Shown here: positions 48,071 through 56,512 of the stretch, one piece after another
Numbering within the stretch: position 1 is the stretch's first letter
Layout of the letters: each line of letters opens with the position of its first letter
The notes under the pieces: generated by a model
What the model saw: only the letters and a program-made list of their open reading frames with translations
Told to the model about the DNA's origin: nothing
Database searches by the model: none
NCBI RefSeq assembly: GCF_900113045.1
Contig: NZ_FONY01000018.1
Location: 1 to 64,000, forward strand
Reading direction: 5' to 3'
From: Thermoflexibacter ruber
GTDB taxonomy: Bacteria > Bacteroidota > Bacteroidia > Cytophagales > Thermoflexibacteraceae
DNA length: 64,000 nucleotides
Program-made: the position numbers and the translations under genes

Positions 48071-48982
48071 ATGCATGTAAAACCTTATTTGTATGAGCTA
48101 AATGAAAAAATAGCTTATGGACTTATTTCATTTATAATAATTGTTTCCTCTATTTATACCATTTTTGATATTTTTCAACAACATTTTTTATCAGCCGCAG
48201 TGAGTGCTGCTTTGGCAGTAATATGTATGCTGAGTTATTACCTGATTAAGTACAAATATGCTTACAAAACCATTATTTTATTAGTAACTCTTCTTATATT
48301 TTCCTTGTGTATCACAGAGTTTTTTCTCAACAAAGGTTTTTTTGATGAGAACAAAATCAATTTTCTACTTACAGGTTTGCTTTGGTCGCTTATTTTCACT
48401 TCCTATACCCGCTCAGTTCTCTTGATTTTTTATATCATAGTTACCTCTTGTCTTTTCTATATCCAGTACAAATACCCACAGTTTATCCCTAATCTCTACG
48501 TAGTACAGCCCTTGTCCGAGAAATTGTTTGATTTTGTTATCTATGCCTCAATGATGGTCTATTTAGGCTTTCTTATTCAAAAAGAGTATTTGAAAGAAAA
48601 AAGTAGAGCAGTAGCACAACAGGAAAAATTGGAACAGCAAGTACAGAAGATTAAGGAAAAAAAACAAGAGATATTAGCCCAGCGCGAGGAATTAAGCATC
48701 TTGTATGAGCAATTAGAAGATAAAGTAGCCCTACGCACCGCTCAGTTAGCTAAGCAAAACCAGCAAATCAATAGCTATGCTAATTTTAACAACTCAAAAA
48801 TCCAGCAACCCTTGCAGCAACTTACTGCTCTGTCAGAGCATATCTCTGCTCTTTTGTTACAAAATCGCTTAGCAAATGCTCAGGATACCCTTCCTCAAAT
48901 ACAAGACCTAAGCAATGAGTTGGATATGCTTACCAAAGAAGTCAATCAAATTCTAACCACTACTCAAGAGCTAAACCTATGA
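48071..48982 (+). CDS. Membrane sensor-like protein with degenerate DHp domain, no ATPase domain
   Basis: A 303-residue protein. Six hydrophobic helices (about 16-34, 40-59, 67-87, 97-113, 115-133, 152-170) are followed by a coiled coil (about 173-235) and a two-helix segment (about 236-300). That segment aligns with the DHp region of the next protein, but the phospho-acceptor position is serine (NNSKIQQP, S242) instead of histidine. No HATPase domain follows. It overlaps the next gene by four bases (ATGA). Most likely a non-phosphorylatable partner or decoy in a signalling complex (inference). Confidence 0.75.
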   Translation: MHVKPYLYELNEKIAYGLISFIIIVSSIYTIFDIFQQHFLSAAVSAALAVICMLSYYLIKYKYAYKTIILLVTLLIFSLCITEFFLNKGFFDENKINFLLTGLLWSLIFTSYTRSVLLIFYIIVTSCLFYIQYKYPQFIPNLYVVQPLSEKLFDFVIYASMMVYLGFLIQKEYLKEKSRAVAQQEKLEQQVQKIKEKKQEILAQREELSILYEQLEDKVALRTAQLAKQNQQINSYANFNNSKIQQPLQQLTALSEHISALLLQNRLANAQDTLPQIQDLSNELDMLTKEVNQILTTTQELNL

Positions 48983-49878
48983 AAATACTATCAGATAGAA
49001 ATGATATGCTGGCTCTGGGCATATTGATAGTAACTCGTTTTTTGCTGACTGTTTGGGCGATTACTTTGGGATATGTCTTATATAATCTCTGGCGGGGTAG
49101 TTATCTATTTGCAGCTATCAATAGCGTTGCTTTTCTTATCAATTTTTGGGGCTTCTATCTGATCAAGTTCAAAAAAAAACACCGCCCTATCATCTTACCT
49201 TTAATCATATTCAACTTTTTTTTGATAATGCTCAGTATTGTGCTTACTTACGGCTTGTACAGTTATAGCATGGTCAATATATATCTCCTTTTTTTTATTA
49301 CTACCTTGATTTTTCCTACTCCCCAGCGATATTATCTTCTGGGATTTTATAGCCTTTCCTTGCTAAGCATTGCCTATGCACAGGCTACCTGCCCAGAGTG
49401 CTTCAAGCCTTATATTCCTGAACAACTATATCCTACTAATCTACTCATCACCTTTGCCACAGACAACTTTTTATATATTTCTATTGGATTGATTATCAGT
49501 CAAGAATACATCAGAGAGCAGAAACTAATTTTGAGAAGGGAGCGCATATTAGCCAAGCAAAATGAAGATATTATGGTTCAAAACCAAGAAATTGAATCGT
49601 ATAACGAAGGTATTACCTATCTCAACCAAAAATTAGAGATATTGGTAGAGGAGCGCACCAAGCAGTTAGAGATACAAAACCAACAACTTGTCCATTATGC
49701 TTTTTACAATGCCCACAAAGTTCGCGCTCCTTTAGCAAGGATTTTGGGACTGATTCAATTATTAGCTATGGAATACCAACCTTCCGAAGATACGACTAAG
49801 TTTTACCTGCAAAGCATTAACGACAACATCAAGGAGCTAAACGAAGTAGTTAAAAATATTCATCAGGAAACTATATAG
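48979..49878 (+). CDS. Headless histidine-kinase-like membrane protein
   Basis: A 299-residue paralogue of the preceding protein with the same layout: six helices (to about 172), coiled coil, then a DHp-like pair of helices. Here the H-box is kept as YNAHKVRAPLARILG with H246. The protein ends about 50 residues later, so there is no catalytic ATPase domain and no room for one. It could accept or relay phosphate from another kinase, or dimerise with one. Both genes are translationally coupled, indicating equal production. Confidence 0.78.
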   Translation: MKILSDRNDMLALGILIVTRFLLTVWAITLGYVLYNLWRGSYLFAAINSVAFLINFWGFYLIKFKKKHRPIILPLIIFNFFLIMLSIVLTYGLYSYSMVNIYLLFFITTLIFPTPQRYYLLGFYSLSLLSIAYAQATCPECFKPYIPEQLYPTNLLITFATDNFLYISIGLIISQEYIREQKLILRRERILAKQNEDIMVQNQEIESYNEGITYLNQKLEILVEERTKQLEIQNQQLVHYAFYNAHKVRAPLARILGLIQLLAMEYQPSEDTTKFYLQSINDNIKELNEVVKNIHQETI

Positions 49879-49994
49879 CTGTAGCACTGATTTCCCAAAT
49901 CGGTCATCTCCAATTTTGGAAAATCGAACTCCTAAGCAGGAAAGAATATTTGTTGAAACTTGATAAGATTAACAGAAATTACTTATTTTTGAAT

Positions 49995-50600
49995 ATGCTC
50001 ACTAAAGAAGAAATTATAGAACTTGCTGATAATGAGTTGATAAAAAAAGAAATATCAACTTTGCAAAAAGATTTTAGCCAAATAAAACAATGTTTTGCAG
50101 AAATAGAAGCAGATGATTTTGCCGCTTTTATGCTACTCACGCCTTCGGTAAGTATAGCTTTAGCAAATCGTGAAATTACTTTTTTTGAGGAAATGATGCT
50201 CAACAAAAAAGCTCGCCAACTCTCCCAAGATGCTTACTTTATCAAGCGCGACCCGATAGTCCATGCCTTGCAATCTTTGGTCATTCACTTTGAGGAGTGG
50301 GAAGATAGATTTTTAGAAGTCATTAGATTAATGGTAGAAAGCCTATTAGAAAAAAATCAACTCAGTAAGGAGGTGATGTGTATGCAACAGCACTTAGACA
50401 GGGAAAGTTTGCTTGCCCTTACTCCGCCGCTTTTCACCAAACTGCTTGCCTTTTTATTTTTAGACAGAGAAGAACCCTTTTTTACTCCAAGAAAAGTGTC
50501 TGCCTTTGACTACAAGAAAATCTTGGAAATCAGCAAAAAATTAGGAATCAATGAGTTTACTATCTTTCAAAGATTTTATGAAACCTTTTCTTTACTATGA
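49995..50600 (+). CDS. Conserved hypothetical protein, coupled to folA
   Basis: About 201 residues, starting at MLTKEEIIEL (ATG 49995); a TTG 45 bases upstream would add 15 residues. Almost fully helical and soluble, no signal peptide, with acidic and aromatic residues spread through (EEWEDRFLEVIRLMVESLLEKNQ). No family recognised. Its stop codon overlaps the folA start (ATGA at 50597-50600). The overlap suggests a joint role or joint dosage with folate reduction, but nothing in the sequence shows what. Confidence 0.7.
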   Translation: MLTKEEIIELADNELIKKEISTLQKDFSQIKQCFAEIEADDFAAFMLLTPSVSIALANREITFFEEMMLNKKARQLSQDAYFIKRDPIVHALQSLVIHFEEWEDRFLEVIRLMVESLLEKNQLSKEVMCMQQHLDRESLLALTPPLFTKLLAFLFLDREEPFFTPRKVSAFDYKKILEISKKLGINEFTIFQRFYETFSLL

Positions 50601-51167: not shown

Positions 51168-53072
51168 ATGCGTTACCCCTTGTTAAAAATTACTTGTGTA
51201 GTGCTCTTGCTTGCTTGTACCCCTTTTAAACCATTAAAAGCACAGCAAAGAGGAACTATTCCTGAAAATCAGCTAATGGCTATAGCTGAGTCAAAAAACA
51301 TGGCAGAGAAATATCAAGCCTCTGACCCCAATCAAGCTACTCAATTTCTCAATAAAATTGCCTTTATCTACTGGGAACATGGTTACAACAAAGAAGCCAT
51401 AGACTATTTCAAACGCTCCCTCTCTATCAATGAAAGCATAGGCAATAACAACGCTATCACGATGATTAATCATAATATTGGCTCTCTATACTCTGACATG
51501 GGCTACTTTGATGAAGCATTGAATTATTATTATAAAACCTTAGAAATTAGAAAGTTTAAAAAAGATAAAGAGGGCATTGCCTCTGCATGGCTTACTATTG
51601 CAGATACCTACTCAAAACTTAAGCAATATGACAAAGCCGTACAGATATTGGAAAACGATGCCTTGAAAGCAGTAAAAGAACTCGACAACGAAGAACTCAT
51701 TAGGAACTGTTATGGTCGTTTGGCAGAAAACTATGAAAAAATGGGCAATGCCGAGAAATCTATACAGTATTTTAGGTTTTTTACCATGTTGGACGACAAC
51801 CTAAGAAGAAAAACAGAAGAAGAAAACAAGAGAAAAGTTTTGGAAGCCCAGCTCAAAGCAAAATTAGCGGAAGCTGAGAAAATAGCCCAAGAAGGAAAAA
51901 TCCTCAACCAAGAGCGAAAACTCCTCGCCGCAGAGAGCGAAAAGGAAAAAATGAACCGACAAACCAAAGAGCAACAAAAACAACTACTTATCCTCCAACA
52001 ACGTCAAGAAAACGCTAAACTTTTGGAGGAAAAACTCAAAAAAGAACTTGAATTTGACAAACTGGTGCAAAGGTCGCTCATAGGCGGGCTGGGTTTAGTA
52101 TTTATTTTGGGTTTCGTAGTCTTTTATGCTTACCAGCAAAAGAAAAAGGCAGGAGTGAAACTTGCCTTACAAAATATGGAAATTTTGAAGCAAAAAGAAG
52201 AAATCCTTTCCCAAAGAGATAACATCGAGAAGCAAAGTCAAGAACTCCAAAAAACCTATCACGAAGTCAAAGAAGCTAATGCAAAAATTACAGGAAGCAT
52301 CAACTATGCCCGCCGTATCCAAGATTCTATGCTTCCTGACGAGGCTACTTTGCAAACTTTACTGCCAGAAAGTTTTATTTTATTTAAGCCCCGAGATATA
52401 GTAAGTGGTGATTATTATTGGTTTACGCATACTGAATACCCTGATAATCAGCACAAAGACACCCCTATTCATAAAATTCTCATTACAGCGGCAGACTGTA
52501 CAGGACACGGCGTACCCGGTGCTTTACTTACTATGATGGGTTTTAATTTATTGAATGAAATCGTGCAAAATCGACATATTACAGAAGCTGATTTAATACT
52601 TAATGAACTGCACAAAGGCGTGAGAAAAGCCCTCAAGCAAGAAGAAACAGAAAATAGAGACGGCATGGACTTAGCAATGTGTGTTTGGAGGCAGGAGGAT
52701 AAAATCTTAGAGTATGCAGGTGCAAACAATCCGCTCATTATCATTCAAAATAATGAGTTACAATATTTTAAAGCTGACAAGCACGCTATTGGTGGATTAC
52801 AAAAAGAGGCGAATAGAACATTTACAAAGCACGAAATTTCTATTCAGCAGCCTACAGCTGTCTATATGTTTTCAGATGGCTATGCCGACCAATTTGGGGG
52901 TGAGCATGGACGAAAATTTACTATCAAAGCCTTGAAGGAACTTTTGCTTGCGATTCATCACAAACCTATGCAAGAGCAAAAAGAAATCTTAGACGTAGAA
53001 ATTACCAAATGGAAGGGCTTGCATCACAAGCAGATAGACGATATTTTAATGTTAGGATTTAGGTTAGGCTGA
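51168..53072 (+). CDS. TPR-domain SpoIIE-type protein phosphatase
   Basis: A 634-residue membrane phosphatase. The N-terminal export signal contains LLLAC, a possible lipobox. TPR units (about 35-215) come next, then a long coiled coil (about 215-298), a TM helix (about 302-322), another coiled coil and the SpoIIE domain (about 375-634). Metal and catalytic motifs are KPRDIVSGDYYWF, AADCTGHGVPGALL, EYAGANNPLI and MFSDGYADQFGG. The TPR part would sense a periplasmic protein and the phosphatase would act in the cytoplasm. It resembles the 54.3-kb phosphatase in its C-terminal half. It overlaps the convergent FkbM gene by 14 bases. Confidence 0.9.
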   Translation: MRYPLLKITCVVLLLACTPFKPLKAQQRGTIPENQLMAIAESKNMAEKYQASDPNQATQFLNKIAFIYWEHGYNKEAIDYFKRSLSINESIGNNNAITMINHNIGSLYSDMGYFDEALNYYYKTLEIRKFKKDKEGIASAWLTIADTYSKLKQYDKAVQILENDALKAVKELDNEELIRNCYGRLAENYEKMGNAEKSIQYFRFFTMLDDNLRRKTEEENKRKVLEAQLKAKLAEAEKIAQEGKILNQERKLLAAESEKEKMNRQTKEQQKQLLILQQRQENAKLLEEKLKKELEFDKLVQRSLIGGLGLVFILGFVVFYAYQQKKKAGVKLALQNMEILKQKEEILSQRDNIEKQSQELQKTYHEVKEANAKITGSINYARRIQDSMLPDEATLQTLLPESFILFKPRDIVSGDYYWFTHTEYPDNQHKDTPIHKILITAADCTGHGVPGALLTMMGFNLLNEIVQNRHITEADLILNELHKGVRKALKQEETENRDGMDLAMCVWRQEDKILEYAGANNPLIIIQNNELQYFKADKHAIGGLQKEANRTFTKHEISIQQPTAVYMFSDGYADQFGGEHGRKFTIKALKELLLAIHHKPMQEQKEILDVEITKWKGLHHKQIDDILMLGFRLG

Positions 53073-54325: not shown

Positions 54326-56512
54326 TTATAATACTTTTACCCCGATAACCAGAATATCGTCAGTTTGGCTTTCATTTCCTTCTTCTATCCAAGTTTTTAG
54401 CTTCTGTTCTATGTATTGCTTTTGAAAGTCGGCAGGTGCTTGATAAATCTCTAAAAATACTTGTTTCATTTGAGAAAGCATAAACTTCCTTTGTATTTTC
54501 CCACCGAATTGGTCTTGGTAGCCATCGGAAAAGATATAAAAAGTAGTAGGCAAAGATAGGTCAATGAGGTGTTTATTGAACAAATGCTCCTGCTCCTGTC
54601 GCTCCCCGCCAATGGAAATCCTATCTCCCTTCAAGTGATGCAATTTGCCTTCTTGGAGATAAATAATTGGATTTTTTGCCCCTGCAAATTCCATTTTTCT
54701 ATTGATTTTGTCTATTACTACTAAAGACAAATCCATGCCTTCTCTACTGCTTGTTTCCTCTTGACGCATTACTCTACGGACAGCTCTATGCAAGGAATTG
54801 AGGATTTGGTCGGCTTCGGTAATTTTTTTCTCTATGACTATTTCATCTAAAAGCTGATGACTAATCATAGTCATAAAAGCACCGGGAACGCCATGACCTG
54901 TGCAATCAATGGCGGCAAGCACGATTTTGGCTTGCTCTGGAATTTCTGCAAACCAATAAAAGTCCCCACTTACTATATCGCGAGGGCGAAAAAATACAAA
55001 AGACTCGGGCAATACTCTTTGCATCAGACTGATATTTGGCAAAATGGATTGTTGGATTCTTTGGGCATAGTTCAGGCTGGAGGTAATCTCTCTATTAGTT
55101 TCTGCTAACTTGGCTCTTTGTTCATTGACAATCTCTAAGGTTTGCTGTGTTTCTTCCAAGACTTGGTTCAGTTTTTCATTGGTTATGGCTAATTCACTAT
55201 TGGCACTGCCCAGCTCATCGGTGCGTTGTTTTACTATATCTTCTAAGTTGTTATTGATTTGACGCATTTCCTCACTCAAATCCTCAACTTTCTGAAAAGC
55301 CTTTGAAAATAAGGAAGATAGCAATAAAGTTTGAGAAAAAATAAACGCCAATAATCCCAAAGGAATAGCGATGAATGTATTGATTACCTCGTTGGCATGG
55401 AGCAAATCATTGACCGTTGCTGCTATGATGCAAACTACTCCGACCAAAAATGTGATGCTTCCCTCTCGCCTCAAAAAGACAATTCTTACTGTAAAATAGA
55501 GCGTATAAGCAAGAAAAACAAGGGTAAAAACTTGAAAGCCTGTTAAGAACTTAGAGTAAAAAACAATTTCCCTAGACAAAGTTACTATGGAGTAAGCAAA
55601 TGCTACCCACTTGACTACTTGGCAAACTTTGAGGGAAAAGTCTTGTGGATAGACTGCATGAAAAAAGTAGGCGGCACAAAGAAGTCCCAAATAAAACGTA
55701 AGATAGGAAATTTTGCTTGAGAGTTGGAAAGAGGTATCTTCATAAAAATCAGTAATGACAAACTCATCAGTTACCAACATTCTCAAAGAAATCGTAAAAC
55801 ACAGCAAGCCGAAATACAAAGCGGCTTTATTTTTCTTCCTAAAAAAATACAAACTCAGGTGATAAAGCCCCATCACTACTAAAATTCCTAAAACAAAAAA
55901 CAAGTAATTAGTTTTTGCTTGATGCTGCCCAATAATTTGATTTTCAAGCCCTATTTTGAATGTACCTGTAAGTCCTCCGTAACGGTCTTGGTAATTGGCT
56001 ACCTGAATCAGCAAGTCTAAGGTATCTTGCCTAACCTCAAAAGCATAAAACTGCGGATTGATGTTGGGAATATGGTTTTCTTCTTGGGTTGCTACTTTAC
56101 CTACACCTCCAAGTTTTTCATTTTGCAAAAAAAAGTTATACGCCGTATTGATGTAGCCTATTTTGAAGGCTAATCTCTTGTTTTTATACTTAGGGTTGAG
56201 GTAGATGTGCAAACGATAAGTAGCATAGCCCTTTGCCTCTAAGATAGCATCTTTCCAGCGTAGTCCATTCCATTTGCTTGGAATTGTATGAAAAACAAAG
56301 TCTTCACTTTCTTGGTTGGGCATAAGCAAGTGTTGCCAATACAACCTACATTCCCCATTGATGTCTATGATGCCTCCTTGTTCAAATTCCCATTGGCTAA
56401 GGTCTAAAACACCTTTTATTGCTTTGGGCTTTGAGAGTAGCACAGGCTGGCAGGAAGAGAAACCTACAAGAATGAACAGTCCAATAAAAAATAAACTCTG
56501 AGATAAAGACAT
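54326..56512 (-). CDS. 7TM-DISM SpoIIE-type protein phosphatase
   Basis: A 728-residue transmembrane phosphatase. The signal peptide ends at the lipobox FSSC (C21), then comes a galactose-binding-like periplasmic domain (about 30-195; YATYRLHIYLNPKYKNKR, TAYNFFLQNEKLG). A seven-helix 7TMR-DISM region follows (about 203-405), then a coiled coil (about 408-470) and the SpoIIE domain (about 475-728) with FRPRDIVSGDFYWF, AIDCTGHGVPGAF, EFAGAKNP and FSDGYQDQFGG. It senses an outside ligand, possibly a carbohydrate, and dephosphorylates a cytoplasmic target. Its C-terminal half resembles that of the TPR-SpoIIE phosphatase at 51.2 kb. Confidence 0.9.
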   Translation of the reverse strand: MSLSQSLFFIGLFILVGFSSCQPVLLSKPKAIKGVLDLSQWEFEQGGIIDINGECRLYWQHLLMPNQESEDFVFHTIPSKWNGLRWKDAILEAKGYATYRLHIYLNPKYKNKRLAFKIGYINTAYNFFLQNEKLGGVGKVATQEENHIPNINPQFYAFEVRQDTLDLLIQVANYQDRYGGLTGTFKIGLENQIIGQHQAKTNYLFFVLGILVVMGLYHLSLYFFRKKNKAALYFGLLCFTISLRMLVTDEFVITDFYEDTSFQLSSKISYLTFYLGLLCAAYFFHAVYPQDFSLKVCQVVKWVAFAYSIVTLSREIVFYSKFLTGFQVFTLVFLAYTLYFTVRIVFLRREGSITFLVGVVCIIAATVNDLLHANEVINTFIAIPLGLLAFIFSQTLLLSSLFSKAFQKVEDLSEEMRQINNNLEDIVKQRTDELGSANSELAITNEKLNQVLEETQQTLEIVNEQRAKLAETNREITSSLNYAQRIQQSILPNISLMQRVLPESFVFFRPRDIVSGDFYWFAEIPEQAKIVLAAIDCTGHGVPGAFMTMISHQLLDEIVIEKKITEADQILNSLHRAVRRVMRQEETSSREGMDLSLVVIDKINRKMEFAGAKNPIIYLQEGKLHHLKGDRISIGGERQEQEHLFNKHLIDLSLPTTFYIFSDGYQDQFGGKIQRKFMLSQMKQVFLEIYQAPADFQKQYIEQKLKTWIEEGNESQTDDILVIGVKVL

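Follow-up and report, generated by a model that had tools for sequence, protein, structure and literature searches.

Two overlapping genes for headless kinase-like membrane proteins

The stretch analyzed here (the window) comprises 64,000 nucleotides of Thermoflexibacter ruber contig NZ_FONY01000018.1, and all positions are numbered within it. On its forward strand lie two paralogous open reading frames (ORFs), ORF1 (48071 to 48982, 303 amino acids [aa]) and ORF2 (48979 to 49878, 299 aa), which overlap by the 4-bp ATGA that forms the ORF1 stop and the ORF2 start (48979 to 48982). The two proteins align over their full length with 29% identity (E = 7e-28) and share one layout, namely six membrane helices, a coiled coil and a hairpin like that of the dimerization and histidine phosphotransfer (DHp) domain; we call such proteins, which have no ATPase (HATPase) domain after the hairpin, headless. 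In ORF1, the membrane domain covers residues 1 to 170 (48071 to 48580), the coiled coil residues ∼171 to 230 (48581 to 48760) and the degenerate DHp hairpin residues ∼231 to 302 (48761 to 48976). The corresponding parts of ORF2 are residues 1 to 174 (48979 to 49500), ∼175 to 232 (49501 to 49674) and ∼233 to 298 (49675 to 49872), the limits between membrane domain and coiled coil being approximate in both proteins. ORF2 carries the conserved H-box His, H246 (codon cac, 49714 to 49716), and pairwise alignment places S242 of ORF1 (codon tca, 48794 to 48796) opposite to it.

Pfam recognizes HisKA in ORF2 (residues 245 to 294; 27.6 bits for a cut-off of 26.9) and gives nothing above cut-off in ORF1, HisKA included. 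It finds a HATPase domain in neither protein, so neither is a complete histidine kinase. The frame 3' of ORF2, when read through, contains many stops, and a HATPase hidden Markov model run over the window gave no match near the pair, so no ATPase is concealed by a frameshift. A first, sequence-only reading of this DNA had reported the two ORFs with their overlap, their common layout, the absence of an ATPase domain and the opposition of H246 and S242, all of which sequence, Pfam, AlphaFold2 and alignment bear out. In its HisKA-like domain, its conserved His and the lack of HATPase, ORF2 agrees with the class of nonenzymatic histidine kinase-like proteins, and ORF1, with S242 and no Pfam match, departs from that class in the HisKA domain and its His. 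The residue directly after H246 is Lys, not the acidic residue of kinase-competent HisKA domains, and the fourth residue after it is Ala, not the Thr or Asn of phosphatase-competent ones.

We then modeled both proteins with AlphaFold2, using 27 (ORF1) and 51 (ORF2) aligned sequences, and obtained predicted local distance difference test scores of 85.4 and 84.5, respectively. Each model shows six membrane helices. The sixth is the start of a single helix of ∼115 residues that spans the coiled coil and reaches into the first helix of the DHp hairpin; a C-terminal helix of ∼30 residues completes this hairpin. In Foldseek, the ORF2 hairpin resembled the DHp domains of DivL (4q20, the best match), HK853 and SrrB over 59 to 72 columns at ∼2 Å (probability, 0.99 to 1.00), with no E value below 1e-3. 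The six helices make up the N-terminal part of both proteins, a module that also occurs in proteins with other outputs. A similar six-transmembrane-helix (6TM) and coiled-coil module is fused to a SpoIIE phosphatase elsewhere in the T. ruber genome (contig C115, L082:754-2253, reverse strand; 20% identity to ORF1 over 246 aa, E = 4e-8), and another is fused to a complete histidine kinase in genome G008 (locus L079). The 6TM and coiled-coil part is thus a shuffled, putative sensor module without a name.

The pair recurs in fixed order, nearly always with one H-box histidine

Our comparison covers 30 tandem pairs from 27 Cytophagales-type genomes. The headless 6TM proteins without the His proved to be encoded just 5' of a His-bearing 6TM paralogue, and with them as queries we found many more pairs in a single GTDB family (f19). 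In all 30 pairs, the gene with the degenerate H-box comes first, and the two genes mostly overlap (by up to 95 bp when the longest ORF is taken) or otherwise lie 1 to 42 bp apart. The first partner has lost the His in 29/30 pairs, the position being occupied by Thr (6 cases), Glu (4), Gln (4), Phe (3) or, in the others, Ser, Lys, Arg, Asn, Tyr, Ile, Val or Met; the sole first partner that keeps it, in genome G343, is without the usual following Arg and Pro. The second partner displays a near-invariant N-x-H-x-x-R-x-P motif, with Asn at −2 and the His in 30/30 pairs and Arg at +3 and Pro at +5 in 29/30. In a set of 88 6TM proteins, each of the 11 degenerate members immediately precedes a His-bearing one and never occurs alone, whereas 66 of the 77 His-bearing members are solo (Fisher P = 2e-8), an association that could be somewhat inflated because the searches started from pair members.

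The two partners also appear to have diverged together, as their distance matrices correlate with an r of 0.93, a value reached in none of 2,000 permutations. Across three genomes of one genus, the ratio of nonsynonymous to synonymous substitution rates (dN/dS) was 0.08 to 0.18 along the His-less gene, in its transmembrane and its coiled-coil and DHp parts, and 0.04 to 0.13 along its partner. Both partners are thus under purifying selection in that genus. The sequence-only reading had proposed a heteromer in which one partner carries the phosphorylatable His; the 30 pairs, with their fixed order, co-divergence and purifying selection, provide strong comparative evidence in its favor.

Two genomes contain two or more pairs in succession. 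G860 harbors a headless 6TM array in the order non-His, non-His, His, non-His, His (L314:1476-6077), and G882 has two consecutive pairs (L325:1377-4975). A broken copy of a pair cluster, with its His partners split over several frames, lies on the 8.7-kb contig C11 of G937 (L315) and is a decaying or mis-assembled duplicate.

Phylogenetic trees group nine His-less proteins from the large family in one clade (support, 100/97), and the branching order of their partners is for the most part the same. Both the window pair and that of genome G356 are placed elsewhere, among solo His-bearing proteins. A single clade for all His-less proteins is rejected (P about 6e-43), a rejection driven by G356, since without the G356 protein the evidence against placing window ORF1 in the large clade is marginal (P = 0.04). 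A sister relationship of ORF1 and ORF2 agrees with the data (P = 0.42). At least two origins of the pair arrangement follow securely from these trees, and three are likely.

A reciprocal pattern next to the histidine

The position that follows the lost His is Glu in 19/30 His-less partners and is acidic in 0/30 His-bearing partners (P = 5e-8). This pattern looks like the canonical His-Glu neighbors split over two chains. We do not claim a composite site, because the two faces are far apart in known DHp dimers. HisKA kinases need the acidic neighbor of the His to be active as kinases (PMC3510030). The absence of this neighbor from the His-bearing partner in 30/30 pairs weakens the earlier suggestion that the pair needs a kinase in trans.

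Headless DHp proteins as a class

Headless DHp proteins in general are neither new nor rare. Around the other matches of ORF2 in the T. ruber genome, we found 33 DHp-bearing ORFs, 26 with HATPase and 7 that stop after the hairpin. Scanning named genomes gave 80 loci, of which all have Bacteroidota names and most belong to Cytophagales, and in 80/80 the matched protein stops 51 to 85 residues past the His, without HATPase. Every one of ∼150 headless homologues terminates after the hairpin, so truncation by sequencing errors, an artifact that the sequence-only reading had raised, is rejected. Among 158 non-redundant headless ORFs, 151 retain the His, and all 151 of these have Arg at +3 and Gly at +11. 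Since the scan pattern fixed NAH[KH][VL]R, residue counts from the 80 loci are biased, and we therefore recounted without them: Asp, Asn or Glu directly follows the His in 36/36 full kinases versus 13/69 headless proteins. The fourth residue after the His is Ala, Gly, Ser or Arg, not Thr or Asn, in nearly all headless relatives.

A search of 396 genomes across the class, with five candidates scored per genome, returned matches confined to the order, and a scan of genome contigs with a single protein as query returned no match. Because few candidates were scored per genome, the pair counts are lower bounds, and little weight attaches to the lack of matches in other orders.

Some headless relatives adjoin a complete kinase (loci L120, L142, L167, L091 and L125). 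In L120:147-7203, L142:1235-6330 and L167:4867-8371, TPR-type headless proteins are clustered with a HATPase-bearing TPR kinase, and one headless member each in L120 (Phe) and L142 (Asn) has lost the His, giving further His-less cases beside a complete soluble kinase. In genome G949, a His-bearing headless 6TM gene overlaps a gene for a 674-aa HATPase protein, a candidate cognate kinase (L330:1077-3936).

Neighboring genes in the window

Immediately 3' of the pair lies a 216-aa ORF without Pfam or NCBIfam match (49950 to 50600, forward strand). It is followed by a gene encoding TPR, a transmembrane segment, a coiled coil and a SpoIIE-type phosphatase, with a partial NCBIfam match to SiaA (51168 to 53072, forward strand); the sole link between this phosphatase and the pair as partners is the 6TM module fused to SpoIIE elsewhere in the genome. 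On the reverse strand, an ORF at 54326 to 56512 weakly matches the headless DHp model (E = 1e-4).

Discussion

The recurrent pair is probably a real two-part sensor, as judged from comparative sequence data. We propose, giving it an even chance, that the two proteins form an obligate heterodimer acting as an inner-membrane sensor, whose single phosphotransfer His exchanges phosphate with a receiver. The six-helix membrane domain of each subunit would read a signal, presumably a ligand, and the coiled coil would pass it to the half of a four-helix DHp bundle contributed by that subunit. With the DHp His confined to the second subunit, the dimer would offer a single site for phosphotransfer, its other face being blank. 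H246 would then be phosphorylated and trade phosphate, in either direction, with the receiver of a response regulator, like a histidine phosphotransfer (HPt) protein or a Spo0B-type phosphotransferase, rather than with a docked ATPase domain; we prefer receiver exchange because there is no ATPase domain, the acidic neighbor of the His is missing and the available flanks contain no kinase neighbors. The signal would modulate the readiness of this lone His to donate or accept phosphate and thereby tune an existing two-component network. A further-reaching version, namely an ATPase-free obligate heterodimeric receptor that acts as an asymmetric phosphotransferase, has the His and its acidic neighbor divided between two proteins and evolved more than once, seems to us improbable as a whole.

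Several observations weigh against our proposal. The receiver-facing role depends mainly on one missing residue, and the distance correlation of 0.93 is also expected under plain vertical co-inheritance. Most of the 30 pairs are not independent, because 29 fall in one GTDB family, and most His-bearing 6TM relatives are solo, so the asymmetry is not obligatory for the class. In the flanks available for the 30 pairs (∼0.5 to 3 kb per side and ∼1 kb for most), we found no gene for a kinase or a receiver, nor the conserved neighboring HATPase protein that the sequence-only reading had envisaged. Conservation in relatives, also raised there, holds for the pair type, which is nevertheless missing from a same-genus genome, G002, that is 98% complete. 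There, the only ORF2-like match at an E value of 1e-12 is a TPR-type headless protein, and the dihydrofolate reductase (DHFR) gene that adjoins the pair is in unrelated contexts in G001 and G002 by a same-genus synteny check.

In one alternative, a separate, complete kinase would use its ATPase domain to phosphorylate the His in trans, and the phosphate would then be passed on. In favor of this, the T. ruber genome has many kinases, complete kinases stand beside some headless relatives, and the His, Arg at +3 and Gly at +11 are conserved in all 151 His-bearing headless proteins; the kinase-free flanks of the 30 pairs argue against this route, which we regard as unlikely. We attach a similarly low probability to a role without phosphotransfer, in which the DHp domains would bind phosphorylated receivers or complete kinases and modulate them in the manner of DivL or RetS, the His serving as a recognition residue. 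DivL, the best structural match of the ORF2 hairpin, works without kinase or phosphatase activity (PMC4211667), and the residues for both activities (acidic at +1, Thr or Asn at +4) are missing here, but a near-invariant N-x-H-x-x-R-x-P in one partner that is lost in the other suggests chemistry at the His.

The paired state itself can be explained otherwise. The two paralogues might be sub-functionalized and act separately as homodimers, being merely co-expressed, and the 66 solo genes among the 77 His-bearing 6TM relatives presumably encode homodimers. Nevertheless, the 88-protein set contains no solo His-less protein, the gene order is the same in 30/30 pairs, the partners co-diverge and the arrangement originated more than once, which makes separate action very unlikely. 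Truncated or decaying kinases, whether sequencing errors or pseudogenes, would account for the degenerate H-box of ORF1; we reject this explanation, whose probability we consider negligible, on the common end point in 80/80 loci, the dN/dS of ∼0.1 for both partners in one genus and the absence of HATPase past the stop.

We compared the proposed heterodimeric phosphotransferase with known systems. Spo0B and ChpT use a dimeric DHp fold for phosphotransfer without kinase activity, as we propose for the pair, but each is a soluble homodimer whose two subunits each have one His and a degenerate ATPase-like domain. In the adenylyl cyclase Rv1625c (7yzk), a six-helix membrane domain feeds a helical transducer, as in the pair, but the output is a cyclase and the structural match is weak (Foldseek probability, 0.33). 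FasB and FasC of group A Streptococcus are heterodimerizing sensor-kinase-like membrane proteins of one locus, with the key His on FasC (PMC12675982). The window pair likewise consists of two sensor-kinase-like membrane proteins from one locus, for which linkage, co-divergence and asymmetry suggest a heterodimer, but the Fas locus also encodes the response regulator FasA, and FasB provides the needed kinase domain and has a candidate His of its own; ORF1 and ORF2 have no working kinase domain in either partner. The split kinase CheA3/CheA4 of Rhodobacter sphaeroides (PMC3591291) also places the phosphoacceptor and other functions on separate proteins, but its fold differs and one partner supplies the kinase, whereas neither ORF1 nor ORF2 has an ATPase. 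GacS/RetS is a further heteromeric kinase case, as cited in PMC12675982. Caulobacter DivL (4q20), in whose DHp domain Tyr550 replaces the phospho-His (PMC4211667), resembles ORF1 in this respect but has a C-terminal histidine kinase core with an ATP-binding domain as well as PAS domains and is not described in tandem with a His-bearing paralogue.

Being headless is not novel in itself, because the class has been published for archaea as nonenzymatic histidine kinase-like proteins (PMC5847659). These proteins ("HisKA, no HATPase"; "phosphotransfer" or "probable incomplete" in P2CS) have been suggested to act as phosphoacceptors or receiver phosphatases (PMC5847659, PMC2716373). Like ORF2, they have a C-terminal HisKA-like domain with a conserved His and no HATPase, in their case behind a sensor domain, a role that the six helices of ORF2 may likewise play; unlike the pair, they are single archaeal proteins, mostly with PAS or GAF domains, and have no His-less partner. 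The earlier statement that no system of this form is described thus needs narrowing: headless HisKA proteins (PMC5847659) and heterodimeric or split kinases (PMC12675982, PMC3591291) are known, while for a pair of ATPase-less paralogues it stands. None of FasB/FasC, CheA3/CheA4, GacS/RetS and DivL is such a pair, and we found no description of one in open-access full texts, which leave out most subscription papers and preprints.

A typical histidine kinase is a symmetric homodimer that brings its own ATPase. If our proposal is true, this asymmetric, ATPase-less module would be a natural experiment on the purpose of the second His in a DHp dimer, and the 30 known pairs make the idea directly testable. 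Some inputs into two-component networks would then lie hidden under the annotations "histidine kinase" or "hypothetical."
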